This document shows positions 14,417 through 49,612 of a stretch of DNA of 64,000 bases, one piece after another. Each line of letters opens with the position of its first letter. The stretch's first letter is position 1. The stretch is taken from assembly GCF_004322855.1 (NCBI RefSeq), contig NZ_CP036402.1, positions 3,348,001 through 3,412,000 of the forward strand. Direction: 5' to 3'. The notes under the pieces are model-generated. The model worked only from the letters and a program-made list of their open reading frames with translations. It was not told where the DNA came from and ran no database searches. The stretch comes from Egibacter rhizosphaerae. Lineage in GTDB: Bacteria; Actinomycetota; Nitriliruptoria; Euzebyales; Egibacteraceae. The position numbers were made by a program, and so were the translations under genes.

Positions 14417-14769
14417 GGCGGCTGCCCTCCGATGCGGTTGGTTGGCCCGCCGCCTCTCGAGGCAACGGTAGGCAGGTGGCCGTGGCCACGGGAAGGTCGA
14501 ACGAGCCTCATTGGACGGGCCGAACGCCCCCCGCGCGCGGGTCGGAAGGGGAGTCGTCTCGTCCGGTAGACGGCCTACGAAATGCTGAAAGGGAAGGCGC
14601 CGACGTTGGGGCGCGACTGTGTCCAGCCCCAACGAGCGCGGCACCCGGTACGTGTTCGGGATATTGAAGGTATGCTCGATCCACGCCATAAACGAAGGTC
14701 TTCAGCGGACCCTTTGCGTCGACACTCCTACCCCATCCGATGCCCGGCCCGCCAATCGAGGGATCGCCG
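14417..14769. promoter_or_regulatory. Divergent promoter region with an 8-bp inverted repeat
   Basis: This 353-base gap separates the DUF6920-type gene (minus) from the proline racemase-family gene (plus), so it should carry both promoters. It contains a perfect inverted repeat GTTGGGGC (14605-14612) and GCCCCAAC (14626-14633) with a 13-base loop, followed by an AT-richer patch at about 14660-14695. No defined operator was recognised. Confidence 0.4.
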
Positions 14770-15801: not shown

Positions 15802-15815
15802 ACCACCACCTGAGG

Positions 15816-16976
15816 CTAGAAGACTTGGGGCTCGTGGACGAGTCCGTCGAGTCCTTCGCCGCGGAAGCGGGTCGCCGAGAACTCCTCAAACTCCTCGGCC
15901 ATCACGCCGTCGAGCACTGCTCGCGCGAGGCGGCGGCTGACTGCGGGGGCGAGCATGAACCCGTGGCCGCTGAAGCCCGCTGCTATCCACAGATTGGCGT
16001 GCTCGCCGACAGGGCCGAGTATGGGTTGGCCGTCGGGCGTCATATCGTAGTGCCCCTCGACGAGCAGCGGGAAGGACACGAACTGCAGCCGCGGCAACAG
16101 CTTCTCGATCTGTTCGTCGATTCGTTGGCGCCACTGCTGCCGACCCGCTTCGGTGGCCTCACCCCTGGCGAGGAGGTCGCTCGCCAGGATGCGTCCATCG
16201 GCAAGGTGCTTGGCCGCGAAGTGCCGCTCCGTGGCGACCACCAACGGGTCGAGCAGCCGCTCGTTGATGGGGGCACTCATGAACAGGTAGCGCCGCTCCT
16301 TCTCGATCGGCAAGCGAATGCCGAGGGGGCGGAGCAAGGGGGGAGTGTCGTAGCCGGCCGCGATTACGACGTGCTCCGCGCAGATGCTGGACCCGTCTGC
16401 GAGCACCACCGTCCACGCCGCTCCCGTGCGCTCGAGGCGCTGGACCTCTGCGTGCTCGATCTGGGCACCGTGTCTCGTGGCGGCTTCCGCATAGGCCTCC
16501 ACGGGGGCCTGCGCGTTGTCGAAGTAGCCGTCCTCCGCGCAGTAGGCCGCCCCGACCAGGGTCTCCGTCATCAGGTCGGGGACCACCTCGGCGGCCTCCT
16601 CGGGAGTCATGAGGTCGGATGGGATCCCGAGGCTGTTCTGCAAGGCGACATTATCTCGCAGTTGCGCCATCACTTCGTCGGACTCGGCCAGGAAGACGTA
16701 GCCGCACGATGACAACCTCGGCCGCGCGCTGGTCTCGAGACGCTCGTGGATGTCGCGATAGAAGAAGAACGCTTCTCGTGCGAGCCGGCAATTGACGGCC
16801 GTCCCCCACTGCTGCCTAACCCCCCCGGGCTGAACCCCGGACGCTCCGGCTCCGATGCGGTCGCGTTCCAACACTGTCACCTCGCCCGCGCCCTGGCTCG
16901 CGAGCTCGAAGGCGGTGGAGAGTCCGGTCACCCCCGCCCCGACGATCACCACGTCGCGATTGCGCCTGCTGGACAT
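15816..16976 (-). CDS. FAD-dependent amine/D-amino acid oxidoreductase (DAO family)
   Basis: A 386-aa FAD enzyme. The N-terminal dinucleotide-binding motif is VVIVGAGVTGLSTAFELA, with TVLERDRIGAGASG closing the second strand. HVVIAAGYDTPPLL is the middle FAD contact and the C-terminal signature is LWIAAGFSGHGFMLAPAVS. This layout is that of sarcosine oxidase or glycine oxidase-like DAO enzymes, which oxidise secondary or D-amino acids. ATG 16976 has AGGAGG upstream. It is the last of three minus-strand genes (hyuB, amidohydrolase, oxidase) and sits next to the proline racemase-like gene, suggesting oxidation of a cyclic or N-substituted amino acid to an imine. Confidence 0.86.
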   Translation of the reverse strand: MSSRRNRDVVIVGAGVTGLSTAFELASQGAGEVTVLERDRIGAGASGVQPGGVRQQWGTAVNCRLAREAFFFYRDIHERLETSARPRLSSCGYVFLAESDEVMAQLRDNVALQNSLGIPSDLMTPEEAAEVVPDLMTETLVGAAYCAEDGYFDNAQAPVEAYAEAATRHGAQIEHAEVQRLERTGAAWTVVLADGSSICAEHVVIAAGYDTPPLLRPLGIRLPIEKERRYLFMSAPINERLLDPLVVATERHFAAKHLADGRILASDLLARGEATEAGRQQWRQRIDEQIEKLLPRLQFVSFPLLVEGHYDMTPDGQPILGPVGEHANLWIAAGFSGHGFMLAPAVSRRLARAVLDGVMAEEFEEFSATRFRGEGLDGLVHEPQVF

Positions 16977-17023
16977 CTCCCCACCACCTCCTGGCCCGCG
17001 GTCCATGTGAAGCCGGTCGGGTG

Positions 17024-18265
17024 TCATGTGGTCATCCGACCGGTCAGGTCCTTGACGATTTGACCGGCCTGGATCACCAACACCACGGACTCGGGGTCCT
17101 CGAGCAGAGCCGGGTTCTCCAGTGGGTCCCCGTCCACGACGACGAGATCGGCGATCTTGCCCGGCTCCACGGTCCCGAGGTCGTCGGCTTGCCCGATGAT
17201 CGTCGCGTTGTGCAGCGTCGCGGCCGTGAGGGCCTCGAGAGGATCGGTCATCTCGGCACGCAGTCGAATCTCGAGGCCTCGGCCGCTCTGCTCGGCACCG
17301 ATGAGGTCGCTCCCCAAGCCCATCAGCACGCCCGCTCCTCGCGCGGATTTGAGAGCTTGACGCAGCGCTGAGCGCATTTGTTGCGCGCGCCCGACCGCTT
17401 CCTCGGGAGCGCCCCATTCTTGCCAGTGCTCCTGAAGGAGGTGACCTATGGACAGGGTGGGCACCATCGCTGCGCCCTGGCGAGCCATCTCAGTGGCGAG
17501 GGCGTCATCGAGGAACGTGCCGTGCTCGATGCACGAGACACCAGCATCGAGCGCTTGAGTGATCGATTCGCGGTTGTGGGCGTGGACGGTCACGTAGCGT
17601 CCGCGTGCCTGGGCCTCTGTCACCGCCGCGCGCAGTTCATCGACGGTGAACTGGGCGTCCTCGAGGCGGTCGGTGTGCGAGATCACGCCTCCGCTGACTG
17701 CGAGCTTGAGCTGCGTCGCTCCGCGTTGAAAGGCCTTGCGCGCGGCCTCGCGCACTTCGTCCGGCCCGTCGCACACCATCGAGGGCTTGACGAGTCCGGG
17801 GATGCCGCTGTGGTACACGTCGTTCTTCTCGCCCAGGTACGGCACGGACAAGTCGCCGTGACCGCCGGTCTGGCAGATCATCGGACCGGACGGAAGGAGC
17901 CGCGGGCCGCGGACGTGGCCCCGTGCGATCGCCTGTGCGACACCACCGTCCACGCCCCCACAATCACGGGCGGTGGTGAAACCTGCTTCGAGTGCCAGCG
18001 CACAATTGCGGAAGATCAAAGCAGCGGTGACCGCGGCGGGAGTCCGGAAGTCAGGTACCGGCCCAACGATGCCTAGGTGCGCATGTGCCTCAATGAGTCC
18101 CGGCAGGGCGACCATCCCGTCCAGATCCACCGTGGGGGTGTCGCGTCGTGCGGCGGCCGGACCGACCGCGTCGATTCGGTCGTCGGAGATGGCGACGGCA
18201 ACGGGATCGCTGATCCGGCCCCGGACGGGGTCGAACAGTCTCGGGCCATCCAGTGTGAGGACCAT
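17024..18265 (-). CDS. Amidohydrolase family metalloenzyme (prolidase/imidazolonepropionase-like)
   Basis: A 413-aa TIM-barrel amidohydrolase. Metal ligands are visible: the HxH motif in GLIEAHAHLGIVG, the Lys in ATQLKLAVSGG, His residues in YVTVHAHNRE and SCIEHGTFLDD, and the Asp in VLMGLGSDLIGAE. The C-terminal beta-sandwich ends with DLGTVEPGKIADLVVVDGDP, typical of the imidazolonepropionase/Xaa-Pro dipeptidase-like branch. ATG 18265 overlaps the hyuB stop (TGATG), so the two are coupled. It likely cleaves a C-N bond in a cyclic amide, dipeptide or guanidine product of the same pathway. The substrate is unknown. Confidence 0.87.
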   Translation of the reverse strand: MVLTLDGPRLFDPVRGRISDPVAVAISDDRIDAVGPAAARRDTPTVDLDGMVALPGLIEAHAHLGIVGPVPDFRTPAAVTAALIFRNCALALEAGFTTARDCGGVDGGVAQAIARGHVRGPRLLPSGPMICQTGGHGDLSVPYLGEKNDVYHSGIPGLVKPSMVCDGPDEVREAARKAFQRGATQLKLAVSGGVISHTDRLEDAQFTVDELRAAVTEAQARGRYVTVHAHNRESITQALDAGVSCIEHGTFLDDALATEMARQGAAMVPTLSIGHLLQEHWQEWGAPEEAVGRAQQMRSALRQALKSARGAGVLMGLGSDLIGAEQSGRGLEIRLRAEMTDPLEALTAATLHNATIIGQADDLGTVEPGKIADLVVVDGDPLENPALLEDPESVVLVIQAGQIVKDLTGRMTT

Positions 18266-20064
18266 CAGTGGTTGCTCCCTTGTGCAGTGGTCTCGCCCAT
18301 GGGGGCGGACGTGTTCGCGCGTTGTTGGTTGGTGGGGGTGGGGTCGATGTCGAGGCTGTGGGGGTCGAGGACGACGTGGTAGTCCCGCTCGGCGGCGTGA
18401 GCGCTGACGTAGCCGGCTTCGACGTCGCGGCGCACGGCCTCGGGGTCGCGGTGCGCGGGTGGACCCCAACCGCCGCCGCCGCCGGTTTGGATGCTGACCA
18501 GCCCGTCGGCGCCCACCGGCACCCGCATGCCCTTCTGATAGACCTGCTCCGCCCCGGTACCCGGATGCGCGACGACTTGGCCGTGCTGCGCACTGCCGCC
18601 CCCGAAGAGGCCCCAGGGTGGGCATTGTTGGCGCTCCAGGATGCAGGTCATCTCGGCGTGGTGGTCCAGCACCCGGTAGTCGCGCACGATGCCCAGCCCA
18701 CCGCGGTGCTGTCCGGGTCCGCCCGAGTCCTGGCGGAGCTCGTGGCGCTCCAGCCGCAACGGGAACCGGGTCTCGATCACCTCGGCCGGGATGTTGCGCG
18801 TGTCCCCGTCGTTGATGAAGATCATCGCTGACTCCCCGTCGCCGTGCGGCCCGGCGCCCCACCCCCCGTTCTCGGGCTCCTGGTGGATGTACAGCTCCCC
18901 ACTGCGCGGATCGGTCCCCACGAAGAAGAACCCCGACAGGTCCCCGTAGTGCGCCGCCGCGACGCGGTCGGGAAGGGTGTCGGAGAGCGCGGTGATCACG
19001 GTGTCGATCAAGATGCGCAGGTGTTGGCCGTACATGAAGGTGGGGGCGGGGTATTGGGCGTTGAACATGCTGTCGTCGGGGCAGTCGAGGTGTAGGGGCG
19101 CGAAGTCGCCTTCGGTGGCGGGGGTGTGCGGATGGGTCAGGCACTTCAACGCGATCCGGCACGCCGCCAGCGTCGCCGGGAGCCCGCAGTTGACCGGTCC
19201 CACGTTCTGGGCATGCGAGCCCTGCAGATCGATGTGCAGCTGATCGCCGTGTACCTGTGCGGTGACCTCCACCGGCAACGGCCCGTTGCCCAAACAATCG
19301 TCATCAAGACACGAGGACGCGCGGTACACCCCGTCGCGCATGTCGCTGATCGCCTGCCGAGTGCGCTGCTCGCCCTGCCGATGCATGACCGTGATCACCG
19401 ACTCGACGGTGTCGCGACCATGCCGGCCGAAGATCTCGGCCACCCGCGCTGCGCCCGACAAGGCCGCCGCCGTCTGCGCCCGCAGATCGCCCATCATGTT
19501 CTTGGTGTAGCGAATGTTGTGCTCGATCAAGCGCGTGACGTGCTCGTCCTGGCGGCCCTCCCGCAACACCTGCACCGACCGGAACCACAGTCCCTCCTGC
19601 ACCACATCGGTGCTGTCGATACTGCCGCCCGGGTCCTTGCCGCCGATGTCCAACCAATGCGCCCGCGTCGACGTGAACCCCAACAGCTCGCCGCCGCGGG
19701 AGAACACCGGCGCCACCGCCGCGACATCATTGAGATGATTACCCGTCAAATACGGATCGTTCATCAAGAACACATCGCCGGGCCGCAGCGACTCCACCCC
19801 CACGTCATGCACCACCCACTGCACCGCCACCGCCAGATTGCCCAAGAAGATCGGCAACCCATCGGCCTGCGCCACCATCCGACCCGCCCGATCAAAGACC
19901 CCACAACTGAAGTCCAACACCTCATAAATGATCGGGTTATACGCCGTGCGCATCAGATTCGTCTTCATCTCCTCCGCCGCGGCAATCAACGCATGCCGCA
20001 CAACCTCCACCCGCACCGGGCTGACGTCCCCAGCTGCCATGGGACCAGTGGCTAGTGGGTTCAC
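18265..20064 (-). CDS. hyuB: Hydantoinase B/oxoprolinase-family subunit (copy 1)
   Basis: A 599-aa HyuB-type subunit. HyuA and HyuB together form ATP-dependent hydantoinases, 5-oxoprolinases and acetone/acetophenone carboxylase-like enzymes that open or carboxylate small rings or ketones. Family blocks: [60 protein letters not shown]-like [36 protein letters not shown] and a Gly-rich [13 protein letters not shown] tail. The GTG at 20064 has GGAGAGG at good spacing. The stop overlaps the amidohydrolase start. Bases 18324-20019 form an inverted repeat with the other hyuB (22684-24379), identical over the first 992 bp. No hyuA lies on this strand. Confidence 0.92.
18324..20019 (-). repeat. Left arm of 1,696-bp inverted repeat (hyuB copy 1)
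   Basis: Reverse complement of 22684-24379, aligned without gaps along 1,696 bases. By reading, bases 19028-20019 here are identical to 22684-23675 there. The remainder differs at five places only: an 86-base island, a 2-base change, one base, a 25-base island and one base. The repeat ends inside the coding sequence at both sides. Confidence 0.95.
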
Positions 20065-20551
20065 GTGGGGCCTCTCCTTCGCTCGGGGCAATAGCACCCG
20101 CTGGGGTCGTCACAGCTCATCGGGACGATGAGCCTTGAGGAAGCTGAACGGACCTCCCCGGGGTGTCAGGTGGCGATACCGGTCAGCAGGGCCGCGATTG
20201 CCGGCTTGACCTCGGGCTTCGCTGGTCTCTCCACTGTCCCGTAGCCGATTCTGGCTGACCTGTTGACCTTCCTCGCAGGGCCGGGCAGACTCTACCGACA
20301 TTGAGAATGTTGAACAAGGGTCTTCCTGGAGGCTTCTTGAGACGATGCGGCCCACCAGAGCGCCCGCGTCCACCACGTCGGGCGCGGCTGAGCGAGACCG
20401 TCGCTGCCCGGTCGCGGTTCACGGACGATCGGCCTCACCGAGCGGAGTCGTGCGTCCTTCAAGCGGCACAGATCCCCCGCGTCGCTTCCCGCTACGCGGG
20501 GGAGATCGGTGACCTTCGGTTCCGGGTCTCTACACGTTCGAAGGGGACAGC
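20065..20551. promoter_or_regulatory. Divergent hyuB/hyuA promoter region
   Basis: The 487 bases between two divergent genes hold no convincing gene. It must contain the promoters for the minus operon (hyuB, amidohydrolase, oxidase) and the plus operon (hyuA, hyuB, transporter). A palindrome at 20298-20310 is the only clear operator candidate. The region lies inside the segment flanked by the inverted hyuB repeats. Confidence 0.55.
20298..20310. promoter_or_regulatory. Candidate operator ACATT-GAG-AATGT
   Basis: A perfect 5-bp inverted repeat with a 3-base centre, in a locally AT-rich patch midway in the hyuB/hyuA divergent promoter. The core TTGAG-ATG recurs on the minus strand at 32790-32800, upstream of the XRE-cupin regulator gene, which makes that regulator a candidate binder. 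Inference from two sites only. Confidence 0.35.
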
Positions 20552-22660
20552 ATGGTGACACAGCAGGCTGGGTCGGCTCGCTCCCTGCGGGTTGGGGTTG
20601 ACATCGGCGGGACGTTCACGGACCTCGTGATCGTCGACGACGATGAAGGCTCCGTTCGGCTCGAGAAGACGCCGACCACACCCGGGCAGCTGTCGCAGGG
20701 AATCCTGCGGGGGCTTGACTCGGCCGGGATCAGCGGGGACGCCATCGGCCACCTGGCGCACGGTACGACCGTGGGCATCAACACCTTGCTCCAGCGTCGT
20801 GGAGCGAGGACGGGCTTGCTGACCACCAAGGGCTTCCGAGACGCCTATGAGATCGGCCGTGGGGCACGACCGGATGTGTACAACCTGCACTTCCGCAAGC
20901 CCCAGCCGCTCGTCCCCCGGGAACGCCGGCTCGAGGTCGACGAGCGCTTGGCTGTGGATGGCCAGGTGGTACGCCCCTTGGACGAGGCGAGCGTGCGGTC
21001 GGCCATGGAGGTACTCCGGCGCTACGAGGTCGACACCGTCGCGGTGTGCCTCATCCACGCGTACGTAAATCCCGCCCACGAGCGGCGAGTCGCCGAGATC
21101 GTGCGCGAGGGGTTGCCCGACGCCTTCGTCTGCACGTCCCACGAGCTCGTTCGTGAATGGCGCGAGTACGAGCGCACGAGCACCACCTGCGTGAATGCCT
21201 ACATCATGCCGCGCACGGGTGAGTACATCGACGACCTCATCACCGGCCTCGAGGCCCAGGGCTACGCGAACACCCTCTTCGTGAACCAGTCGGCGGGGGG
21301 TGTGATGTCGGCCACCACCGCCAAGTGGAAGCCCGTTGGAACGCTGATGTCCGGGCCCTCGGGGGGTGCAGCCGCAGCGGCTCACGTCGCGGAGCTCATG
21401 GACCTGCCGGGCGGCATCATCTCCTTCGACATGGGGGGCACGAGTACAGACGTCGCCGTCATCGAGGGGGGGACGCTCCCCATCACCGCCGACGCGAAGA
21501 TCGACCGCATCCCGGTCATGGTCCCGATGATGGCGATCGAGTCGATCGGCGCAGGTGGAGGTTCCATCGGCAAGGTCGATGAGGTCGGCGCGCTGGATGT
21601 CGGGCCACAGAGCGCCGGTGCGGAACCCGGCCCCGCCTGCTACGGCGGCGGTGGTGAGCTGCCGACGGTCACTGATGCGGACCTCCTGCTCGGCCGGCTT
21701 CCGAAGGAGCGGTTCCTGCCGGGCCAGATGTCCCTCGACGAGGACGCCGCTCGCAAGGCGCTGGACCAGCACGTGGGCGAACCGTTGGGACTCACCCCAG
21801 AGGAGTCCGCTGCGGGCATCGTCGAGCTCGTCAACCTGAAGATGGCCATGGCCGTGCGTTCGCTCACGGTCGAGCGTGGCCTGGATCCCCGAGACTTCTC
21901 GCTGTTTGCCTTTGGCGGCGCCGGGCCAATGCATGCGTGCGCGATCGCCGAGGAACTCGGAATTCCCAAGGTGATCGTCCCGCTCGCTGCGGGTCAATTC
22001 TCCGCGTTGGGGATCCTCATGAGCGACATCCGCCACGACTTCGTGCGGACCGCCGCGGAGCGCCTCAGGGAGCCCACCGCCGAGGAACTCAGCGAGGAAT
22101 TCGGAGCGGTCGAAGGCGAAGCCCGGGGAACGCTTGAGCGCGAAGGTGTCGCGCCGGGCGACATGGCGTTCTCACGGTCCGTTGATCTCCGCTATGCGGG
22201 CCAGGAATACACCGTCAACATCCCGGTACCCTCCGGAGCTCTCGACCACGATGGCCTAGTGCAGGTCTTCGAGGCGTTCCACAGTCGGCATCAGCAGGTG
22301 TACAGCCACAGTTCCCCCGAGGAACAGCCCGAGCTAGTCAACCTGCGCGTCGCCGCGATCGGGCGGCTGCCGAGTCTCAAACTCCAGCGCTTGCCGATCG
22401 GCTCCTCGGAACCGGGGACGGCTTCCGTCGTCGGTTCGCAATCGATCGTGTTCGACCGCTCCGAGGACGTGGTCGAGTCGCCGGTGTACGACCGCGCCTC
22501 CATGGAGGCCGGCAACGTAGTGAAGGGGCCCTGCATCATCGCGGACATGGGGTCCACGACCGTCGTGCCACCCACGGCCACAGGTGAGCTCGACGAATTC
22601 GGCAACCTGGTTATCCACGTGGAGGAGCAGGCTTCCCAGACGGCTCGGAGCGATCAGTGA
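20552..22660 (+). CDS. hyuA: Hydantoinase A/oxoprolinase-family ATP-binding subunit
   Basis: A 702-aa HyuA-type subunit with an actin-like ATPase fold. The phosphate loop is VGVDIGGTFTDLVIVDDD near residue 15, followed by HGTTVGINTLLQRRGARTGL. The middle block is GPSGGAAAAAHVAE, then the second phosphate loop SFDMGGTSTDVAVIEGG, and IGAGGGSIGKVD. AFGGAGPMHACAIAEELG lies in the C-terminal part. It activates a cyclic amide or ketone by phosphorylation for reaction on HyuB. ATG 20552 has AAGGGG upstream. Its TGA overlaps the ATG of the next hyuB (TGATG), so the subunits are made together. It is the only hyuA among three hyuB genes and lies between the arms of the inverted repeat. Confidence 0.94.
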   Translation: MVTQQAGSARSLRVGVDIGGTFTDLVIVDDDEGSVRLEKTPTTPGQLSQGILRGLDSAGISGDAIGHLAHGTTVGINTLLQRRGARTGLLTTKGFRDAYEIGRGARPDVYNLHFRKPQPLVPRERRLEVDERLAVDGQVVRPLDEASVRSAMEVLRRYEVDTVAVCLIHAYVNPAHERRVAEIVREGLPDAFVCTSHELVREWREYERTSTTCVNAYIMPRTGEYIDDLITGLEAQGYANTLFVNQSAGGVMSATTAKWKPVGTLMSGPSGGAAAAAHVAELMDLPGGIISFDMGGTSTDVAVIEGGTLPITADAKIDRIPVMVPMMAIESIGAGGGSIGKVDEVGALDVGPQSAGAEPGPACYGGGGELPTVTDADLLLGRLPKERFLPGQMSLDEDAARKALDQHVGEPLGLTPEESAAGIVELVNLKMAMAVRSLTVERGLDPRDFSLFAFGGAGPMHACAIAEELGIPKVIVPLAAGQFSALGILMSDIRHDFVRTAAERLREPTAEELSEEFGAVEGEARGTLEREGVAPGDMAFSRSVDLRYAGQEYTVNIPVPSGALDHDGLVQVFEAFHSRHQQVYSHSSPEEQPELVNLRVAAIGRLPSLKLQRLPIGSSEPGTASVVGSQSIVFDRSEDVVESPVYDRASMEAGNVVKGPCIIADMGSTTVVPPTATGELDEFGNLVIHVEEQASQTARSDQ

Positions 22661-24411
22661 TGAACACGGTCCAGCAGATCGATCCGGTGCGGGTGGAGGT
22701 TGTGCGGCATGCGTTGATTGCCGCGGCGGAGGAGATGAAGACGAATCTGATGCGCACGGCGTATAACCCGATCATTTATGAGGTGTTGGACTTCAGTTGT
22801 GGGGTCTTTGATCGGGCGGGTCGGATGGTGGCGCAGGCCGATGGGTTGCCGATCTTCTTGGGCAATCTGGCGGTGGCGGTGCAGTGGGTGGTGCATGACG
22901 TGGGGGTGGAGTCGCTGCGGCCCGGCGATGTGTTCTTGATGAACGATCCGTATTTGACGGGTAATCATCTCAATGATGTCGCGGCGGTGGCGCCGGTGTT
23001 CTCCCGCGGCGGCGAGCTGTTGGGGTTCACGTCGACGCGGGCGCATTGGTTGGACATCGGCGGCAAGGACCCGGGCGGCAGTATCGACAGCACCGATGTG
23101 GTGCAGGAGGGACTGTGGTTCCGGTCGGTGCAGGTGTTGCGGGAGGGCCGCCAGGACGAGCACGTCACGCGCTTGATCGAGCACAACATTCGCTACACCA
23201 AGAACATGATGGGCGATCTGCGGGCGCAGACGGCGGCGGCCTTGTCGGGCGCAGCGCGGGTGGCCGAGATCTTCGGCCGGCATGGTCGCGACACCGTCGA
23301 GTCGGTGATCACGGTCATGCATCGGCAGGGCGAGCAGCGCACTCGGCAGGCGATCAGCGACATGCGCGACGGGGTGTACCGCGCGTCCTCGTGTCTTGAT
23401 GACGATTGTTTGGGCAACGGGCCGTTGCCGGTGGAGGTCACCGCACAGGTACACGGCGATCAGCTGCACATCGATCTGCAGGGCTCGCATGCCCAGAACG
23501 TGGGACCGGTCAACTGCGGGCTCCCGGCGACGCTGGCGGCGTGCCGGATCGCGTTGAAGTGCCTGACCCATCCGCACACCCCCGCCACCGAAGGCGACTT
23601 CGCGCCCCTACACCTCGACTGCCCCGACGACAGCATGTTCAACGCCCAATACCCCGCCCCCACCTTCATGTACGGAACCCATCTGATCCTGCTTATTGAC
23701 ACGATCGTGAGCGCGCTGAGCGAGGCGATCCCGGAGCGGGTGGCCGCCGCGCACTACGGCAACCTGTCGGGGTTCTTCTTCGTGGGGACCGATCCGCGCA
23801 GTGGGGAGCTGTACATCCACCAGGAGCCCGAGAACGGGGGGTGGGGCGCCGGGCCGCACGGCGACGGGGAGTCAGCGATGATCTTCATCGCCGACGGGGA
23901 CACGCGCAACATCCCGGCCGAGGTGATCGAGACCCGGTTCCCGTTGCGGCTGGAGCGCCACGAGCTCCGCCAGGACTCGGGCGGACCCGGACAGCACCGC
24001 GGTGGGCTGGGCATCGTGCGCGACTACCGGGTGCTGGACCACCACGCCGAGATGACCTGCATCATGGAGCGCCAACAATGCCCACCCTGGGGCCTCTTCG
24101 GGGGTGAGGCGGCTGCCCACTGTCGCACGGTCGCGCATCCGGGTACCGGGGCGGAGCAGGTCTATCAGAAGGGCATGCGGGTGCCGGTGGGCGCCGACGG
24201 GCTGGTCAGCATCCAAACCGGCGGCGGCGGCGGTTGGGGTCCACCCGCGCACCGCGACCCCGAGGCCGTGCGCCGCGACGTCGAAGCCGGCTACGTCAGC
24301 GCTCACGCCGCCGAGCGGGACTACCACGTCGTCCTCGACCCCCACAGCCTCGACATCGACCCTACCCCCACCAACCAACGACGGGCCGACCCCACCGGAT
24401 CGGACGCGTAA
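22660..24411 (+). CDS. hyuB: Hydantoinase B/oxoprolinase-family subunit (copy 2)
   Basis: A 583-aa HyuB subunit translationally coupled to hyuA. It is nearly identical to copy 1 apart from its N-terminal dozen residues, the last residues and short islands: [20 protein letters not shown] here against [20 protein letters not shown] in copy 1; one residue at FIAD/FIND; MERQQ/LERQQ; and [28 protein letters not shown]. The substituted residues cluster in two places, perhaps near a subunit or substrate surface. The repeated part uses more T- and A-ending codons than its neighbours (for example in the codons for [12 protein letters not shown]), suggesting foreign origin. The dipeptide-type transporter follows 63 bases later. 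Confidence 0.93.
22684..24379 (+). repeat. Right arm of 1,696-bp inverted repeat (hyuB copy 2)
   Basis: Inverted copy of 18324-20019. Differences by eye are confined to 23676-23761, 23890-23891, 24064, 24105-24129 and 24363. The arms enclose 2,664 bases that carry hyuA and both promoters. Confidence 0.95.
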
Positions 24412-24474
24412 GCGGTCGCCGCTGGCAATTCACGCCACGCCGTCTGAGCAGCAAACCGAGGAGAAGGGCAAGCC

Positions 24475-26193
24475 ATGTTCAATCGTGACACGCGGGACCG
24501 CCGAGTCCGCCTCGGCGCACTCGGCGTTCTCGCCCTGGTGATGCTCCTCGCGGCGGCCTGTGCGCCGGGTGACCCCGACGAGGTGGACGACGTCGAGGAC
24601 GACCCCCAGGCTCAGGAAGAGGCGGGCGACAGCGAGGAAGCCCAGGACCAGGACGCCGAGTCCACGGAGGGCTCGACGCTGACCATCGCGATCCCTGACG
24701 ACATCGCGACGCTTAATCCGCCCGACGCGACCTCGCCACGATCCAACATCGCGCTCGTGCAGCTCTACGATTCGCCGTTCACCTACGAGCATGTCGAGCT
24801 GGACGACGGAACGGTGATCGGGGACTCCACGGCCCTCGAGGGACTGATCTTCGAGGAGTGGGAGACCGAGGACGATGGGCAGACCTACACCATCACCATC
24901 CGCGAGGACGCCGCGTTCCACGACGGGGAGCCCATCACCGCGGAGCACGTGCACTACATGTTCGAGCGGTCCTTTGAGACCCAGGATGGCGAGAGCGGTT
25001 CGAACTGGTACCTGACCAACGTCTCCGGGATCACCGAGCCGCCTGAGGTCATCGACGAGCACACTATCGAGTTGTCGGTCGAGCAGCCTTCGCAGCTCAC
25101 GATGCGCAGCCTCACCGCGATCCAGATGGGCATCCTGGATTCCCAGGAGATCGAGGAGAACGCGCCCGAGGACGATCCGTGGGCGAACGCGTGGCTGTCC
25201 GACAACGTCGCCGGGGGTAGCGGGCCGTACGAGTTGGTCGAGTGGGAGCGTGACCAGCGCGTTGTATTCGAGGCTAACGCCGACTACTGGCGAGGCGCCC
25301 CCGACATCGACCGGATCGTGTGGGAGATCGTCCCCTCCGCTTCTGAGCGGGTGCAGTTGCTGCAGGCTGGCGAAGTGGACATGGTCGAGGGGCTGGGGCC
25401 CGACGAGATCGCCGCGGTCGAGGGTGCCGATGGGGTCGACATCGTCTCGGTGCCGTCGCAGAACCGTCTCTTCCTGGGGATGAACAACACGGTGGCGCCC
25501 TACGACGACCAGGCGTTTCGTCAAGCCGTCTCTCATGCGGTTGACTACGACGAGCTGATCCAGGAGGTCTACGGAGGTGACGCGGAGCGCCTGCACGGCC
25601 CGTACCCGGAGGGCCCTGCAGGCTCCCCCCACTCGCTCGGCGACGAGATCGGTTACGAGACCGACCTTGCCGAGGCGGAACGGTTGCTCGAGGAGAGCGG
25701 CTACGACGGCTCGCCGGTCACCCTGTCGATCGACAACTCGGTCGCTGAGCACGAGGAGGTCGCCGTGCGCGTCCAGTCCTTCCTTGCAGCGATCGACGTG
25801 GACGTCGAGATCGACCAGATGACTCCCTCGGTGTTCGCTGAGCAGCGCAACGAGACGACACTCGAGTTCTTCGTTGACGAATCGCTGTCATGGATCGACG
25901 ACCCGGCGTACTTCCTCTCGGTGAACTTCCAATGCGGCGTCCTGATCAACCACGTTGAGTACTGCAACGAGGACATCGATGCGGCCATCGAGGAAGGCTG
26001 GACCGAGATGGACGAGGACGTGCGGCAGGAGATGTTCGGGGAGGCCCAGCGAACGATCGTCGACGAGGCGCCCTGGGTGTTCATCGCCCACCCCGACTTC
26101 CAGCTCGCCATGCGTGACCACGTTGAGGGCTACGTCCACTACATCGACGAGCTCCCCCGCTACTACGACCTGTCCCTCAGCGACGACGACTAG
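24475..26193 (+). CDS. Dipeptide/oligopeptide-type ABC transporter substrate-binding lipoprotein
   Basis: A 572-aa solute-binding protein of family 5 (SBP_bac_5). The signal peptide ends in a lipobox LLAAAC, so the mature protein is lipid-anchored outside the membrane. A strongly acidic linker of about 35 residues (mostly Asp, Glu, Gln) follows. The body has TLTIAIPDDIATLNPPDA, the typical TITIREDAAFHDGEPITA, GSGPYELVEWERDQRVVFE, and AFRQAVSHAVDYDELIQ. ATG 24475 has a GAGAAGGG site upstream. It starts the transporter part of the hyuAB operon, so its ligand is probably the substrate of the pathway. Whether this is a peptide, hydantoin or opine-like compound is not readable. Confidence 0.9.
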   Translation: MFNRDTRDRRVRLGALGVLALVMLLAAACAPGDPDEVDDVEDDPQAQEEAGDSEEAQDQDAESTEGSTLTIAIPDDIATLNPPDATSPRSNIALVQLYDSPFTYEHVELDDGTVIGDSTALEGLIFEEWETEDDGQTYTITIREDAAFHDGEPITAEHVHYMFERSFETQDGESGSNWYLTNVSGITEPPEVIDEHTIELSVEQPSQLTMRSLTAIQMGILDSQEIEENAPEDDPWANAWLSDNVAGGSGPYELVEWERDQRVVFEANADYWRGAPDIDRIVWEIVPSASERVQLLQAGEVDMVEGLGPDEIAAVEGADGVDIVSVPSQNRLFLGMNNTVAPYDDQAFRQAVSHAVDYDELIQEVYGGDAERLHGPYPEGPAGSPHSLGDEIGYETDLAEAERLLEESGYDGSPVTLSIDNSVAEHEEVAVRVQSFLAAIDVDVEIDQMTPSVFAEQRNETTLEFFVDESLSWIDDPAYFLSVNFQCGVLINHVEYCNEDIDAAIEEGWTEMDEDVRQEMFGEAQRTIVDEAPWVFIAHPDFQLAMRDHVEGYVHYIDELPRYYDLSLSDDD

Positions 26194-26247
26194 CGCGGTC
26201 TCGGGCGGGGTGGGTTCTCGCCCGACACCGTGGCGGAGAGGCCCTGG

Positions 26248-27258
26248 ATGCGTCTCGCCCTCTACCTTGCCAAGCGTCTCGGACTGCTGCTCGTGTCCTT
26301 GCTCGGTGTGAGCATCATCACGTTCGTGGTCACGCGGGTGGTGCCGGGGAATCCGGCGGCGTTGATCGTCGGGGAGTACGCCGACCATGCCCGGGTCGAG
26401 GAGGTCATCGCGAGCCTGGGCTTTGACCGGCCCCTCCACGAGCAGTACTTCACGTACCTGGGCTCCCTGCTTCAGGGGGACCTGGGCACCAGCTGGCGCA
26501 CGGGCAACGACGTGGTGGCCGACCTCGCGGTGCGTTGGCCTGCGACCGTCGAGCTCGCCGGCTTTGCCCTCGTGCTCATCCTTCTCTGGGCATTGCCACT
26601 CGGGATCTGGGCTGGGACTCGCCCGGGTTCCGTCCCCGATCGGTTCGCGAACGCCCTCTCCGGGCTCGGGGTGTCGATGCCCGAGTTCTGGCTCGGGGTG
26701 CTCCTGTTGTTCGTCTTCTTCGGGACGCTCGGGTGGGCGCCGCCCCCCCTGGGACGCATCTCGGGGGTGTCCGCGCCCCCGACGATCACCGGCTTCTATT
26801 TGGTCGACGCCCTGATGGCCGGACAGTGGGCGGCCCTGTGGGCCGCATTGCGACAATTGCTGCTGCCGGCCGCGACGCTTGCCTTCGTCTTGGGTGCCCC
26901 GTTGTTGCGGGTCACACGCGCCTTCATGCGTGAGGCGATGTCGGCGCAGCACATTCGAGCCGCGCGGGCGTTGGGCGTGGGCCGGGCCTCCCTGGTCTTC
27001 CGACACGGGTTGCCGAACGCCTTGCTGCCGGTCACCACGATGATGGCGATGCTCTTCGGCTACCTGCTGGGGGGGACCGTCATGGTCGAGTACGTCTTCG
27101 CCTGGCCGGGACTCGGGAAGTACGCCGTGGACTCGATCAACGCTGGTGACTATGCCCCTGTCATGGCGGTCGTGCTGGTAAGCGCGCTGAGCTACCTGCT
27201 GGTCTACATGCTTGTGGACATCATGCACTTCTTCCTCGACCCGAGGTCTCGCGCATGA
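26248..27258 (+). CDS. Dpp/Opp-type ABC transporter permease (DppB-like)
   Basis: A 336-aa permease with about six membrane helices. Family marks: an N-terminal helix followed by VVPGNPAALIVGE, LGFDRPLHEQYFTYLGSLLQ, GDLGTSWRTGNDVV, and the cytoplasmic EAA loop at MREAMSAQHIRAARALGVGR, then GTVMVEYVFAWPGLGKYAVD. ATG 26248 is chosen over the GTG at 26230 because a GGAGAGG site precedes it. It overlaps the next permease by ATGA. It pairs with the DppC-like protein to form the membrane channel. Confidence 0.9.
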   Translation: MRLALYLAKRLGLLLVSLLGVSIITFVVTRVVPGNPAALIVGEYADHARVEEVIASLGFDRPLHEQYFTYLGSLLQGDLGTSWRTGNDVVADLAVRWPATVELAGFALVLILLWALPLGIWAGTRPGSVPDRFANALSGLGVSMPEFWLGVLLLFVFFGTLGWAPPPLGRISGVSAPPTITGFYLVDALMAGQWAALWAALRQLLLPAATLAFVLGAPLLRVTRAFMREAMSAQHIRAARALGVGRASLVFRHGLPNALLPVTTMMAMLFGYLLGGTVMVEYVFAWPGLGKYAVDSINAGDYAPVMAVVLVSALSYLLVYMLVDIMHFFLDPRSRA

Positions 27259-28091
27259 GCGCACCGAGCGCCACACCGGACGGAGCACGTCGCCCGATCG
27301 CGGGATTGCGAAGGTTCGCGAGCCCGGCGTACGTAGCCCTCACCATCATCGTGCTCATCGCCTTGGTCGGTCCGTTCCTGGTCGGAGATCCCGAGGCCGT
27401 CGGGACCGGGCCGACCCTCGCAGGACCGTCGCTGGCTCATCCGATGGGCACGAACGAGTTCGGCATGGACATGATGTCGCGGGTCGTGCATGCGGCGCGC
27501 CTGGATCTCGGCGTCGCAGTGAGCGCCTCCGCGATCGCGGTTGCGATCGGGATGCCGCTTGGCGCGCTGGCCGCGTACCGAGGCGGCTGGCTCGACAACG
27601 TCGTCCTCCGTATCTCGGAGTCGTTTCAGGCTTTTCCGGTCCTGCTACTCGGCATGGCGATCATCGCGGCGCTCGAATCGAGCATCCCGAATCTGATCGG
27701 CGTCATCGCCCTCGTCAACATCCCGGTGTACGTGCGGCTGACGCGCAGTGCGGTCGTGCCCCTCAAGGAAAGCGATTTCGTGCTCGCCGCGCGGTGCGCC
27801 GGCCACGGAACGCCAAGGATCGTCGCTCGGCACATTCTCCCGAACGTCACGAACGTCGTCGCCGCGCAGTTCTCGGTGAACTGCGCCTGGGCGATCCAGA
27901 TCCTCGCCGGCTTGAGCTTCATCGGTGTAGGCGTCGCGCTACCGACGGCGGAGTGGGGGGCGATGGTGCGCGGTGGCGCTGACCGCGTGGTGTACGGCGA
28001 ATGGTGGGTGGCCATGTTCCCGGGTCTCGCGATTCTCGTGACCGTCCTCACGCTCAATGCGGTCGCAGAACGGATCCGGCATGGAGACTGA
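27255..28091 (+). CDS. Dpp/Opp-type ABC transporter permease (DppC-like)
   Basis: A 278-aa permease starting at ATG 27255, inside the stop of the previous gene. Typical DppC features: one N-terminal helix (YVALTIIVLIALVGPFLV), then HPMGTNEFGMDMMSRVVHAA, then a block of helices with the EAA loop around ESDFVLAARCAGHGTPRI, and the C-terminal GLSFIGVGVALPTAEWGAMV. It heterodimerises with the DppB-like protein. Its end overlaps the first ATPase gene by 11 bases. Confidence 0.9.
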   Translation: MSAPSATPDGARRPIAGLRRFASPAYVALTIIVLIALVGPFLVGDPEAVGTGPTLAGPSLAHPMGTNEFGMDMMSRVVHAARLDLGVAVSASAIAVAIGMPLGALAAYRGGWLDNVVLRISESFQAFPVLLLGMAIIAALESSIPNLIGVIALVNIPVYVRLTRSAVVPLKESDFVLAARCAGHGTPRIVARHILPNVTNVVAAQFSVNCAWAIQILAGLSFIGVGVALPTAEWGAMVRGGADRVVYGEWWVAMFPGLAILVTVLTLNAVAERIRHGD

Positions 28092-29076
28092 GCCAGGCCG
28101 ACTGCCCGCAAGCGCGTGCGACGCGGATGGACCCTTGCTCGCGGTCGACGACCTGCGCGTGCGCCTTCGTGGCCAAGAGCACGACGTCCACGCCTTGCAG
28201 GGGGTCAGTTTCGACGTGGCGCCCAGACGACGCGTCGGGCTGGTGGGTGAGTCGGGCTCGGGGAAGAGCCTTACCGCGGCCGCGATCATGGGCATGCTCC
28301 CCCCACAAGCCGTCGTCGACGGCGGTCGCATCGACCTCGACGGACTGGACCTCGTGCGCGCGTCGGAGCGCCAGATGCGCCGGGTCCGCGGAACGCGACT
28401 GTCGGTGGTGTTCCAGCACGCGAAGGCGTCGCTGAACCCCGTCCTCACGGTGGGGAGCCAGATCGCGGAGGTACTGCGTATCCACAAGGGACTGTCACGT
28501 CGAGAGAGTCACGAGGGGGCTGTCGACCTCCTGCGTCAGATGGGCATCCCGAATCCGCAGGAACGTGCGCGCGAGTACGCGCACCAGTACTCAGGTGGGA
28601 TGGCCCAGCGGGCCACGCTCGCGCTCACGATGGCGTGCTCACCCGACCTGCTCATCGCGGACGAGCCCACAACCGGACTGGACGTGACCGTCGAGGAGCA
28701 GGTCCTTGAGCTGCTGACCAGCGAGATCGACGCGCGAGGGGCGTCCCTGCTCTTCATCAGCCATGACCTCGGCGCTGTAGCGCGTATCTGCGACGACGTG
28801 GTCGTCCTCTACGCGGGAATGGTGATGGAGAGTGGGCCCGCGGAGCGGGTTCTCAAGGATCCCAGGAACCCGTACACCCGCGAGCTCCTTCGTTGCTTCG
28901 ACCGACAACCGGGGCAGCGGCTGCACACGATCGAGGGGCAGGTCCCCACCATCACGACCCCTCATACGCGGTGTCCCTTCACCGACCGCTGCCCGTCGGT
29001 CGGGCCGGAGTGCCACTCATCGGTCCCTCAGCTCCGCGAGATGGACGGCAGAAAGGTGGCCTGTCATCGAGTCTGA
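28081..29076 (+). CDS. Dpp/Opp-type ABC transporter ATPase (DppD-like)
   Basis: A 331-aa ABC ATPase. Walker A is GESGSGKS, the Q-loop is VVFQHAKASLNPVL, the signature is YSGGMAQR, and Walker B is LLIADEPTTGLD, followed by FISHDLG with the switch His. The C-terminal oligopeptide-transporter domain has NPYTRELLRC and a Cys-containing CPFTDRCPSVGPEC motif that often binds an iron-sulphur cluster in this family. The ATG at 28081 lies inside the end of the permease gene, so translation is coupled. It powers uptake together with the second ATPase. Confidence 0.92.
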   Translation: METEPGRLPASACDADGPLLAVDDLRVRLRGQEHDVHALQGVSFDVAPRRRVGLVGESGSGKSLTAAAIMGMLPPQAVVDGGRIDLDGLDLVRASERQMRRVRGTRLSVVFQHAKASLNPVLTVGSQIAEVLRIHKGLSRRESHEGAVDLLRQMGIPNPQERAREYAHQYSGGMAQRATLALTMACSPDLLIADEPTTGLDVTVEEQVLELLTSEIDARGASLLFISHDLGAVARICDDVVVLYAGMVMESGPAERVLKDPRNPYTRELLRCFDRQPGQRLHTIEGQVPTITTPHTRCPFTDRCPSVGPECHSSVPQLREMDGRKVACHRV

Positions 29077-29140
29077 GACGCAGATCGCAGCATCCACCTC
29101 CCCGTCCCCGAGGGACGACCACGGTTCCCCGCTCCTACAG

Positions 29141-30133
29141 GTGGATGGGCTCGTTAAGGACTACGTGCGCACGGACGCCTCCCTGCGGCGTCGTCCTCTT
29201 CGGGCAGTGGACGGAGTGTCGTTCACGGTAGGTCGCAGCGAGACGTTCGCGCTCGTCGGCGAATCGGGCTCCGGGAAGTCCACGGTGGGGCGGGTCCTGT
29301 TGCGCCTCACCGAGCAGACCGCGGGCTCGATCGTCTTCGACGGTGAGGAAATCGGGAGGCTCTCCGAACGTCAGGCCCGCCGCTTCCGGCATCGCATCCA
29401 GATGTTGTTTCAAGACCCAATGGCTGCGTTCGATCCCCGGATGACGATCCGGGAGAGCCTCGCCGAGTTCCTCAGGCTACGCGGGGTGCCGCGGAGCGCC
29501 GTGAACAGCGAAGTGGCTCGCGCCCTAGCGTCCGTGGGCTTGGACTCGGACCTCGCCCGACGTCGGCCCGGAGCGCTGAGCGGCGGCCAGCTCCAGCGTG
29601 TTGGCGTCGCTCGGGCCCTAGCGCCGGAGCCGGAGCTGGTGTTTCTCGACGAGCCCACCTCCGCGCTGGACGTCTCGATCCGTGGTCAGATCGTGAACCT
29701 GCTGTCCGAGCTGCAGGAGACACAGTCGGTCGGCTACGTCCTCGTGACCCACGACTTGCGCGTCGTCGAGGCCATGGCCGATCGGGTCGGTGTGATGTAC
29801 CTGGGTCAGCTTGTTGAGGTCTGTGCCAAGGAAGAGTTGTTCGAGCGACCGCTGCATCCGTACACGCGGGCCCTCATCGGGGTCACCCGCCGGTCCGCGA
29901 TCGCCGAGGGAGCAGCCGATCACGCGGTCGGCCTCGGGCGCTTGCATGGCGAGCTGTCGCTCGAGCACGCCGAACGCGAGGGCTGCCGTCTCGCTCCACG
30001 GTGCCCCTTCGCGGAGGCTCGGTGCGAGGAGCCGCAGGAGTTGGTGCAGGTCGCGCCGGCCCACTGGGCGCGCTGCTGGAAGGCGCTGGACGTCGAGCAA
30101 CAGGTCGACGCCGACGCCACGAAGGGTTCGTGA
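29141..30133 (+). CDS. Dpp/Opp-type ABC transporter ATPase (DppF-like), start uncertain
   Basis: An ABC ATPase of at least 330 aa. Walker A GESGSGKS, Q-loop MLFQDPMAAFDPRMTIRE, signature LSGGQLQR, Walker B LVFLDEPTSALD and switch His in VTHDLRVV are present, with the C-terminal HPYTRALIG and a CRLAPRCPFAEARC cluster-like motif. The frame is open upstream to 28832, but no ATG, GTG or TTG lies between there and the GTG at 29141, which has no good ribosome-binding site and trims the first beta strand. The protein-like stretch begins near 29063, just after AAAGGTGG, so an unusual ATC start at 29066 is possible. Confidence 0.85.
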   Translation: MDGLVKDYVRTDASLRRRPLRAVDGVSFTVGRSETFALVGESGSGKSTVGRVLLRLTEQTAGSIVFDGEEIGRLSERQARRFRHRIQMLFQDPMAAFDPRMTIRESLAEFLRLRGVPRSAVNSEVARALASVGLDSDLARRRPGALSGGQLQRVGVARALAPEPELVFLDEPTSALDVSIRGQIVNLLSELQETQSVGYVLVTHDLRVVEAMADRVGVMYLGQLVEVCAKEELFERPLHPYTRALIGVTRRSAIAEGAADHAVGLGRLHGELSLEHAEREGCRLAPRCPFAEARCEEPQELVQVAPAHWARCWKALDVEQQVDADATKGS

Positions 30134-30175
30134 CGTCGTGACATGTTCATCGGACATCGGCGGAAGGGTCGTCCT

Positions 30176-30934
30176 GTGGAATCTATGAGGATCCGGGTGC
30201 TCGTTCCTCTCACCCTTGAGGGTGTCGGGGACGAGCCGATGCACGAACTTCTCGAGCTGTACGCCCAGGTCGGGGCGAAGAGCACCGAGCTCTCGGTCGC
30301 GAAGATTACCGGCGGCCCATCGACGGTCGAGCAGCACTACGACGAGGCGCTGGCTGCCGGCTACGCGGTGATGGAGGCGGAGCGCGCCGAGCGTGAGGGT
30401 TGCGACGCTGTATTGAACGCGTGTTTCGGGGACCCGGGTCTGCGCGCCTGCCGTGAGGCGGTCCGCATCCCCGTGATGGGGACCGGGCTCGCGTCGATGA
30501 CGGTGGCCACCACGCTGGGGAGTGCCTTCGGCCTCGTCGCAGTCGAGGAGAACGGCATTCCCCTGATGCGTGACCTCGCTAGTTCGTACGGCCACGCGCA
30601 TCGGTTGGCGGGTATCCGTCCGCTGGGCGCGTCGGTCCCCGAGATCCTCGGCAGCAGCGCACCGGGAGAAGGGCGAGACACGCTCCTGGAGCAAGCCCTC
30701 GTTCCGGCCCGGCGGCTCGTGGAGGAGGATGGCGCCGACGTCCTCATCCTGGGCTGCGGGGGACTCGGCAACGTTGGCGCCCCGAAGTGGCTGGAGGAGA
30801 GGCTTGGTGTCCCTGTCCTCGATCCCAACGTCACTGCGCTGAAGCTAACCGAACTCCTCGTCGTGGGCGGCGTCGCGCACAGCCGGACGACCTACCCGCC
30901 TCCTCGAGCAAAGCCGCGCAGCCACCCCGGGTGA
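30176..30934 (+). CDS. Asp/Glu/hydantoin racemase-family protein
   Basis: A 252-aa protein of the aspartate/glutamate/hydantoin racemase superfamily. The two-domain pseudo-symmetric fold has one catalytic Cys in each half: NACFGDPGLRACREAV and LILGCGGLGNVG. RIRVLVPLTLEG and PVMGTGLASMTVA match HyuE-like members. The GTG at 30176 has GGAAGGG 7 bases upstream; ATG 30185 is the alternative. It sits between the transporter and the third hyuB. In hydantoin pathways such enzymes interconvert the D and L forms of the 5-substituted ring, which fits the hyuAB neighbours. Confidence 0.85.
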   Translation: MESMRIRVLVPLTLEGVGDEPMHELLELYAQVGAKSTELSVAKITGGPSTVEQHYDEALAAGYAVMEAERAEREGCDAVLNACFGDPGLRACREAVRIPVMGTGLASMTVATTLGSAFGLVAVEENGIPLMRDLASSYGHAHRLAGIRPLGASVPEILGSSAPGEGRDTLLEQALVPARRLVEEDGADVLILGCGGLGNVGAPKWLEERLGVPVLDPNVTALKLTELLVVGGVAHSRTTYPPPRAKPRSHPG

Positions 30935-30988
30935 CACCCATCGATGACGCACCGCTCGTTGCGCCTGTCGCGGAGGAAGGGCTGGTAC

Positions 30989-32737
30989 ATGGTTGACCCC
31001 ATCACCGTCGAGGTCGTGCGCCACGCGCTGATCGCTGCTGCGGAGGAGATGAAGACCAACCTCCGCCGCACGGCCTACAACCCGATCATCTACGAGGTTC
31101 TCGATTTCAGCTGCGGGGTGCTGGATCGCAACACCCGAATGGTCGCGCAGTCCGACGGCCTGCCCATCTTCCTCGGTAACCTGACGGCCACGGTGAGCAC
31201 CATGGTGGCCGACGTGGGCGTCGACCGACTTCGGCCGGGCGACGTGTACCTCATGAACGACCCGTACGAGGCGGGAAACCACCTCAACGACGTCGCGACC
31301 ATCGCGCCGGTCTTCTCGGACGGGGACGAGCTGTTGGGCTTCGCCTGCACACGTGCGCACTGGCTCGACATCGGGGGCAAGGACCCTGCGGGGAGCCTGG
31401 ACGCGACCGAGATAATGCAGGAGGGGCTGTGGTTCCGCTCGGTACTACTACAGCGGGCAGGCGAACCGGTCCCCGCGGTGTACCGGATGATCGAGCACAA
31501 CATCCGCTACGCGCGCAACATGCTCGGCGACCTCCGCGCGCAAGTCGCCGCAACCCACGTGGGCGCTCAACGGGTTCGGGAGATCTTCGCTCGTCACGGA
31601 ACGTCGGTCGTCGAGCAGGCCATCGCGTCCATGCACCAGCAGGGTGACCAGCGGACACGCGACGCCATCCGACTCATGCCGGATGGGGTCTACGAGGCCG
31701 AAACCTGTATGGACGACGATTGCCGCGGCAACGGCCCGCTGCCCGTCAAAGTGACGGCCACCGTGGAGGGCAGCGACCTCACTATCGATCTGGCGGGCTC
31801 GCACGGACAGAACGTGGGTCCCGTCAATGCCGGACTCCCAGCGACCGAGGCCGCCTGCAAGATCGCGCTGAAGGCTCTCACGCACCCGCGAACCCCGACA
31901 ACGGACGGGGATTTCGAGGCGTTACGCGTCCTCTGCCCCGAGGACAGCATGTTCAACGCCCAGTTCCCGGCTCCGACGTTCATGTACACCACCCACCTGA
32001 TCACGCTGACCGATCTCGTGATCCGGGCGCTGAGCGGAGCAACGCCGCGGATGGCAGTGGCGGGGCACTACGGGCACCTTTGTGGATTCTTCTTCGTCGG
32101 CTTCGAGCCCACGGATGGGGAGTTGTACATCCACCAGGAACCCGAGCACGGTGGGTGGGGGGCGGGGCCCCACGGGGATGGGGAGAGCGCGATGATCTCC
32201 ATCGCGAACGGCGACACGCAGAACCTACCGGCGGAGATCATCGAGGCGCGGTTCCCGCTCCGTGTTGAGCGGCATGCCCTGCGTCCTGACACCGGCGGTC
32301 CAGGCATGTATCGCGGAGGGCTGGGTACCTATCGCGACTACCGCGTACTCGGTCACAACCCCGAGATGACGTCGGTGATCGATCGGCGCACCTGTCCGCC
32401 GTGGGGTCTTCAGGGCGGTGGAAGCGGCTCACCTGCGCGAGTGATGGTGGACGCCGAAGGCGCAGCGCCCGCCGAGTACGGGAACGGGCGTCGCGTACGG
32501 GTGGGTGCAGACCAGGTCGTCAGTGTTCAAACGCCCGGTGGCGGCGGGTGGGGCTCCCCGCTGGCCCGAGACCCGGAGCAGGTCCGGCTCGACGTCGAAC
32601 GTGGCTACGTCACATCCGCGGCGGCTCGGCTCCATTACGGGGTGGTGGTGGATGAGGTCGGGGAATTCCTGGACGCCGACGCGACCGCTCGGGTGCGCGA
32701 GGATCTGAGCCGCGACGAGGGGGTGACAACACCATGA
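30989..32737 (+). CDS. hyuB: Hydantoinase B/oxoprolinase-family subunit (copy 3, diverged)
   Basis: A 582-aa HyuB protein. It shares the order of all family blocks with the other two copies ([86 protein letters not shown]) but differs at many positions throughout and in codon choice. ATG 30989 has GGAGGAAGG upstream. No hyuA accompanies it; the single hyuA would have to serve several B subunits, or this copy works alone or with a distant partner. It ends the catabolic operon before the XRE-cupin regulator. Confidence 0.92.
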   Translation: MVDPITVEVVRHALIAAAEEMKTNLRRTAYNPIIYEVLDFSCGVLDRNTRMVAQSDGLPIFLGNLTATVSTMVADVGVDRLRPGDVYLMNDPYEAGNHLNDVATIAPVFSDGDELLGFACTRAHWLDIGGKDPAGSLDATEIMQEGLWFRSVLLQRAGEPVPAVYRMIEHNIRYARNMLGDLRAQVAATHVGAQRVREIFARHGTSVVEQAIASMHQQGDQRTRDAIRLMPDGVYEAETCMDDDCRGNGPLPVKVTATVEGSDLTIDLAGSHGQNVGPVNAGLPATEAACKIALKALTHPRTPTTDGDFEALRVLCPEDSMFNAQFPAPTFMYTTHLITLTDLVIRALSGATPRMAVAGHYGHLCGFFFVGFEPTDGELYIHQEPEHGGWGAGPHGDGESAMISIANGDTQNLPAEIIEARFPLRVERHALRPDTGGPGMYRGGLGTYRDYRVLGHNPEMTSVIDRRTCPPWGLQGGGSGSPARVMVDAEGAAPAEYGNGRRVRVGADQVVSVQTPGGGGWGSPLARDPEQVRLDVERGYVTSAAARLHYGVVVDEVGEFLDADATARVREDLSRDEGVTTP

Positions 32738-32883
32738 CGGGGAGTTCGGGGTGAGGACCATCCAGGGCGTGATGGCCGACGCCCATTGGCATACTCAACA
32801 CTGAGAGCTATTCTCCGCTGCAAAGTAGCTGATGCGCGCCTGAGCGGCACGCACTGTCGCCGTACACCGGTGCGAGGACGAAC

Positions 32884-38060: not shown

Positions 38061-38169
38061 CTACGGGTCATCGCGGACTGCGACCAGCTCCTCGGGCCAT
38101 GCCAGGTCGGCTTCGAGCCGTCGCAGCGTGCGCCGGTCAGGTGAGGCCGGCGGCGGCGAACGCGAGCGC
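38061..38169 (-). pseudogene. Recombination scar: PadR tail and coiled-coil protein tail fragments
   Basis: Two gene ends are joined here. Bases 38061-38136 on the minus strand read TLRRLEADLAWPEELV...RDDP and a stop, a diverged copy of the PadR C-terminus found at 34271. Bases 38135-38169 read ALAFAAAGLT and a stop, matching with one mismatch in 35 bases the end of the coiled-coil gene at 36754-36788. Neither fragment has a start. They mark a duplication and deletion event that also removed the front of the GGDEF gene beside them. Confidence 0.7.
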
Positions 38170-49342: not shown

Positions 49343-49362
49343 TCGCAGGGCCCCTTCACTCG

Positions 49363-49569: not shown

Positions 49570-49612
49570 AGCGGATGCTCGTCGCCGCCCGTCACGGCAC
49601 CGATCGTGGATG

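Follow-up and report, generated by a model that had tools for sequence, protein, structure and literature searches.

Inverted hyuB paralogues in Egibacter rhizosphaerae, probably homogenised by repeated gene conversion around two retained islands

Two hyuB genes (copies A and B) that lie in opposite orientation on either side of a single hyuA gene in Egibacter rhizosphaerae are nearly identical from codon 10 to about ten codons short of the stop, apart from two short islands in which they differ about as much as each differs from a third copy (C) nearby. Gene conversion between the two inverted coding sequences, as proposed in a first-pass annotation of this DNA, is well supported by silent divergence, by the coincidence of the limits of homology with the gene ends and by a mosaic of codon styles. 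We consider it probable that A and B are old paralogues which repeated conversion has homogenised, and that the islands have been retained partly through selection on substrate choice.

The window, i.e., the whole stretch of 64,000 nucleotides that was analysed, covers positions 3,348,001-3,412,000 of the genome, which is a single contig of 4.64 Mb. The genes of the locus are the following, in window coordinates.

14740-15801, + strand: proline racemase
15816-17417, - strand: DAO-type FAD oxidoreductase
17024-18250, - strand: amidohydrolase, downstream of hyuB copy B
18265-20064, - strand: hyuB copy B (Pfam PF02538, E = 6e-167, 556.6 bits across the entire profile)
20552-22660, + strand: hyuA (PF01968, PF05378, PF19278), between the arms of the repeat
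22660-24411, + strand: hyuB copy A, Hydantoinase_B (Pfam PF02538, E = 8e-168, 559.5 bits across the entire profile)
24475-30133, + strand: peptide-type ABC importer (SBP_bac_5, two permeases, two ATPases), downstream of copy A
30143-30934, + strand: Asp/Glu/hydantoin racemase
30944-32737, + strand: hyuB copy C (hyuB3), with 66% amino acid identity to copy A
32884-33495, + strand: helix-turn-helix/cupin regulator

Copies A and B match PF02538 over its full length, i.e., they are HyuB (hydantoinase B/oxoprolinase) subunits, predicted to be the catalytic part of an ATP-dependent hydantoinase or oxoprolinase-type enzyme that hydrolyses cyclic amides. The start of copy A overlaps the stop of hyuA (TGATG; sequence 22657-22662), and copy B likely starts at a GTG at position 20064, with GAAGGAG just before it. 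Three hyuB genes share the only hyuA of the locus; in the whole genome there are five hyuB genes and three hyuA genes. With its racemases, oxidoreductase, amidohydrolase and peptide importer assembled around one hyuA and three hyuB, the region 14740-33495 looks like a cluster that imports and degrades cyclic or modified amino-acid derivatives. The window contains two further repeats: a tandem array at 49342-49593 with an 18-nt unit of the TCGTGCGGTGCGCCTCGG type, detected as eleven overlapping 72-nt copies, and a direct repeat of 71 nt (34284-34354 and 38065-38135), the copies of which are 86% identical and 3.8 kb apart.

The inverted repeat formed by A and B has the following parts.

22684-24379, + strand: arm A, confined to coding sequence
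18324-20019, - strand: arm B
22684-23675, + strand, in copy A, and 19028-20019, - strand, in copy B: identical block of 992 nt
23676-23761, + strand: island 1 in copy A (34 of 86 nt differ; residues 340-369)
18942-19027, - strand: island 1 in copy B
24105-24129, + strand: island 2 in copy A (17 of 25 nt differ; residues 483-491)
18574-18598, - strand: island 2 in copy B
23890-23891, + strand: isolated dinucleotide difference (residue 412 is Ala in A and C, Asn in B)
24064, + strand: isolated single difference (Met470/Leu470)
24363, + strand: isolated single difference, silent

The gap-free alignment of the arms is 1696 nt long and contains 55 differences, which change 19 residues. The first-pass annotation had described identity over 992 bp that includes the silent sites, heavy differences in the two islands and few single changes elsewhere, and this description is exact: 34 differences fall in island 1, 17 in island 2 and only four outside them (23890-23891, 24064 and 24363). 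When the three hyuB genes are aligned at the nucleotide level and silent divergence is taken by region, the A-B value is 0.00 in the identical block and 0 to 0.02 in the arms outside the islands, but rises to 0.67 in island 1 and to 0.78 in island 2. Over the identical block, the silent divergence of either copy to C is 0.66, i.e., similar to that between A and B inside the islands. Nucleotide identities in island 1 are 60% for A-B, 60% for A-C and 57% for B-C, and in island 2 they are 32%, 32% and 44%, respectively. From this follows that the islands are not unusually divergent, and that it is the remainder of the two genes that is unusually alike. Replacement relative to silent change in the islands is ordinary (pN 0.27, pS 0.67), with no signal of positive selection.

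Copies A and B, which are otherwise diverged paralogues, are thus joined by sharply bordered tracts of near-zero silent divergence, the pattern by which conversion is recognised. Beyond the nearly identical region the flanks are unrelated. Limits of homology at the gene ends are expected when only homologous coding sequence can convert, and as judged from the sequence they are easier to reconcile with exchange between old coding sequences than with a recently copied segment.

To see how the pattern may have arisen, consider two old inverted HyuB paralogues that are both homologous to C and share the one hyuA next to them. By homologous recombination, tracts of one coding sequence would repeatedly be copied into the other, and from the observed pattern we infer recombination of RecA type and at least three tracts. 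In the end state, A and B would be nearly identical over all but the first and last few codons, while the two islands and the two isolated residues would keep their original divergence, the age of which is suggested by its equality with the A-C and B-C divergence. Most likely, the islands would have been kept at least in part since the two copies would lose a difference in substrate choice if they were converted there.

That the nearly identical sequence is itself a patchwork can be seen from its codon style, defined as the numbers of G- and C-ending codons (G3:C3) among four- and six-fold degenerate codons. In the sequence shared by A and B, G3:C3 is 117:49 before position 23578, 1:14 from there up to island 1, 30:20 beyond it and 3:29 from position 24205, so that two tracts of C-ending codons stand out.

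23578-23675, + strand: tract of C-ending codons with G3:C3 = 1:14, present in both A and B and adjoining island 1
24205-24378, + strand: second C-ending codon tract (G3:C3 = 3:29)

Among 144 genes, taken from the window and from eleven other stretches of 20 kb of the genome, the two highest values of within-gene heterogeneity of codon style are those of A and B (z = 6.0 and 5.9; the next gene has 5.0). The patchwork suggests that the tracts derive from two or more sources. In copy A, there is a break in style at the left edge of island 1 (p = 0.001) and none at its right edge (p = 1.0); in copy B the style is ambiguous and has no clear fit to either border. In A, the sequence just left of island 1 has therefore probably come from elsewhere, with B as its source. 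Replication-strand bias was considered as an explanation of these codon styles and rejected, as neighbouring genes on both strands have ordinary G3/C3 ratios. Three other genes of the control also have uneven third-base style, with z between 4 and 5 (L129:12547-13599, L127:2177-3946 and L128:268-1812), and are possible mosaics.

Comparison with copy C bears on where the islands come from. The first-pass annotation took the first island of one copy to be closer to hyuB3, on the strength of the motifs THLI and ALS. This does not hold: THLI is common to A and C and absent from B, ALS is present in all three, and the identities to C of 15/30 residues and 60% of nucleotides for A against 14/30 and 57% for B do not differ significantly. 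Nor is there a sign of conversion with C, since the longest run of identity between A and C is 20 nt, which is inside the shuffled range (95% limit 24). Residue 412 is Asn in B and in 79 of 79 aligned relatives and, through the dinucleotide change, Ala in A and C; by this comparison the A412/N412 difference would separate an ancestral from a C-like state. Differences between A and B fall on sites that are nearly invariant among relatives in 7 of 19 cases, compared with 24 of 185 for differences between A and C (p = 0.013). No orthologue above about 44% amino acid identity was found among the relatives, 66 genomes of the class, 396 genomes of the phylum, a scan of the genome contigs and plasmids. 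With the nearest orthologue this distant, a tree cannot reveal the history, and the state before conversion is an extrapolation.

The first-pass annotation left it open whether the islands had been preserved or imported from a third allele. Preservation is favoured, since the divergence in the islands equals that of A-C and B-C. Import finds no donor: for island 1, the genome offers none beyond A itself and a short flank of C, the only full-length match in the genome to the island region of B is copy A (72%), and no island donor was found in the searched collections (relatives, class, phylum sample, genome contigs and plasmids).

What the islands may do can be approached from structure. An AlphaFold model of copy A, with a mean pLDDT of 84.7 and low confidence around residues 406-416, matches caprolactamase CapB 6YRA and N-methylhydantoinase 9H03 (Foldseek E = 8.5e-38 and 6.9e-52). 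In the model, island 1 forms helix 339-353 and a turn toward strand 371-378, and island 2 is the loop 483-491 that lies before and runs into strand 490-494. The pocket of CapB includes residues T336, M339, C411 and Phe468 (PMC8453981). By profile alignment the first three correspond to residues 341, 344 and 412, where A/B have Thr/Gln, Ile/Arg and Ala/Asn; a pairwise alignment shifts T336 and M339 to residues 340 and 343, and C411 is placed on residue 412 by both alignments. Residues 345, 369 and 470 adjoin pocket positions, with 470 beside the residue aligned with Phe468. When the islands are mapped in this way, as the first-pass annotation had suggested, island 1 lies in or beside the CapB-derived pocket. 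Three of the 19 residues that differ between A and B fall on pocket positions and six within one residue of them, an overlap which in a circular-shift test has p = 0.021 (exact) and p = 0.014 (within one residue), the counts being small, the test post hoc and the CapB template only about 28% identical.

The metal ligands of CapB are D41, H99, D102 and H124, and its dimer interface spans residues 129-174 (PMC8453981). The Asp-His-Asp-His site is present in A, B and C as D45, H104, D107 and H130, and both these four ligands and the region aligned to the CapB-CapB interface lie inside the identical 992-nt block. Since A and B differ at predicted pocket positions and are identical in the regions mapped to the interface and the metal site, the comparison supports a role of island 1 that is related to substrate and not to partner. 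Of the proposal that the islands set substrate or partner specificity, it is thus the first part that gains indirect support. At the column of residue 107, we note, 79 of 79 aligned relatives (mostly proteobacterial) have His, and CapB (D102), A, B and C have Asp; the caprolactamase paper calls CapB D102 fully conserved (PMC8453981). The subfamily of these relatives may bind its metal through Asp-His-His-His.

The same history of conversion could have left the islands standing with no functional selection at all, if they were too divergent for strand exchange and the tracts simply halted there. We regard this as possible, though doubtful. When windows of each island's length are ranked by A-C identity, island 2 falls among the lowest 1% and island 1 among the lowest 18%, so that poor homology alone could account for their survival, and the ordinary pN/pS of the islands is in line with such a barrier. 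However, about 11% of the homogenised windows of 86 nt have an A-C identity no higher than that of island 1 (minimum 51%), and yet they were converted. Moreover, the differences at residues 412 and 470 lie outside long divergent stretches and on or beside predicted pocket residues. That the islands were kept in part because two substrate specificities were selected for is plausible.

We consider it unlikely that the whole gene was duplicated in inverted orientation only recently, and that one or both copies then took up short tracts from a divergent homologue. Such a duplication would give the near-perfect identity seen outside the islands, and short foreign tracts can in principle be imported. 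Nevertheless, the repeat ends where the genes end, the genome and the searched collections contain no donor, and a tract from an external donor would, on two occasions, have to end at both borders precisely where identical sequence begins. The split between C-like and ancestral states at residue 412, and the codon-style mosaic that extends outside the islands, also speak against this history.

Since hyuA lies between arms of opposite orientation, a crossover between the arms would flip hyuA onto copy B and the amidohydrolase and off copy A and the importer. In silico, this inversion leaves both hyuB frames and hyuA intact, so that inverted identical blocks flank variable segments with open frames in both orientations, as in the inverting Type I hsdS loci (PMC7394358; SpnIII, PMC6620402), where inverted copies likewise carry identical blocks and divergent specificity segments that recombination in the blocks could reassort. 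That the hyuB arms are a slow specificity switch of this kind, giving a population several HyuAB enzymes that differ in substrate range, is nonetheless improbable. If it were true, crossing-over in the identical blocks would place hyuA with one or the other hyuB and with one or the other downstream operon, and would reassort islands 1 and 2 between the copies. A recombinase gene is common, yet not universal, at hsdS loci; no match to a resolvase or integrase family occurs within about 200 kb of the hyuB locus, and the nearest integrase-family match is about 240 kb away. The hyuB islands are also short (86 and 25 nt), and both copies look full, with starts of their own.

An assembly artefact through partial collapse or cross-polishing of the arms is very improbable. 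Near-identical inverted arms of 1.7 kb are indeed hard for short reads, but the genome is one contig, both frames are fully open, and the island differences encode coherent protein sequence. Polishing cannot make 992 identical bases from sequence that is 60-70% identical, so that the near-identity is real even where single differences might be errors. Even mutation following one duplication, which the first-pass annotation had already thought unfit to explain the mosaic, is refuted: when 55 differences are placed at random, the longest identical run averages 137 nt and in 20,000 trials never exceeded 379, compared with the observed 992.

Conversion between old paralogues with retained islands has known parallels, and the hyuB pair illustrates an established evolutionary pattern cleanly in a bacterium and is not a new kind. 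In human red/green opsin exon 5 and in RHCE/RHD, concerted evolution proceeds around a selected peak of divergence (PMC3924837): neighbouring duplicates are homogenised by conversion, as A and B are, and a short stretch, which in the opsin and RH genes holds functional residues, stays divergent. The hyuB pair, in contrast, is bacterial and inverted, its islands are far more divergent, and selection on them is a proposal made here. Bacterial rRNA operons (PMC8022953) are likewise repeated genes homogenised within one genome; here it is an enzyme subunit pair with retained islands, and no multicopy RNA gene. Caprolactamase CapAB (6YRA) and N-methylhydantoinase (7HK5, 9H03) share the HyuB fold, the sequence family and the metal ligands with A and B, but are only about 28-33% identical to them, and the vicinal disulfide Cys410-Cys411 of CapB aligns to Ile-Ala in A and Ile-Asn in B.

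The locus is a compact natural experiment, in which two subunits that are 19 residues apart within the arms share one ATPase partner and are apparently held apart against conversion, with the differing residues clustered partly near the predicted pocket. If the islands have no role in substrate choice, the locus is a clear case of conversion halting at heterology. If they do set substrate choice, specificity residues would be named for a poorly characterised enzyme family, and the hyuB pair would be a bacterial counterpart of the opsin and RH cases.
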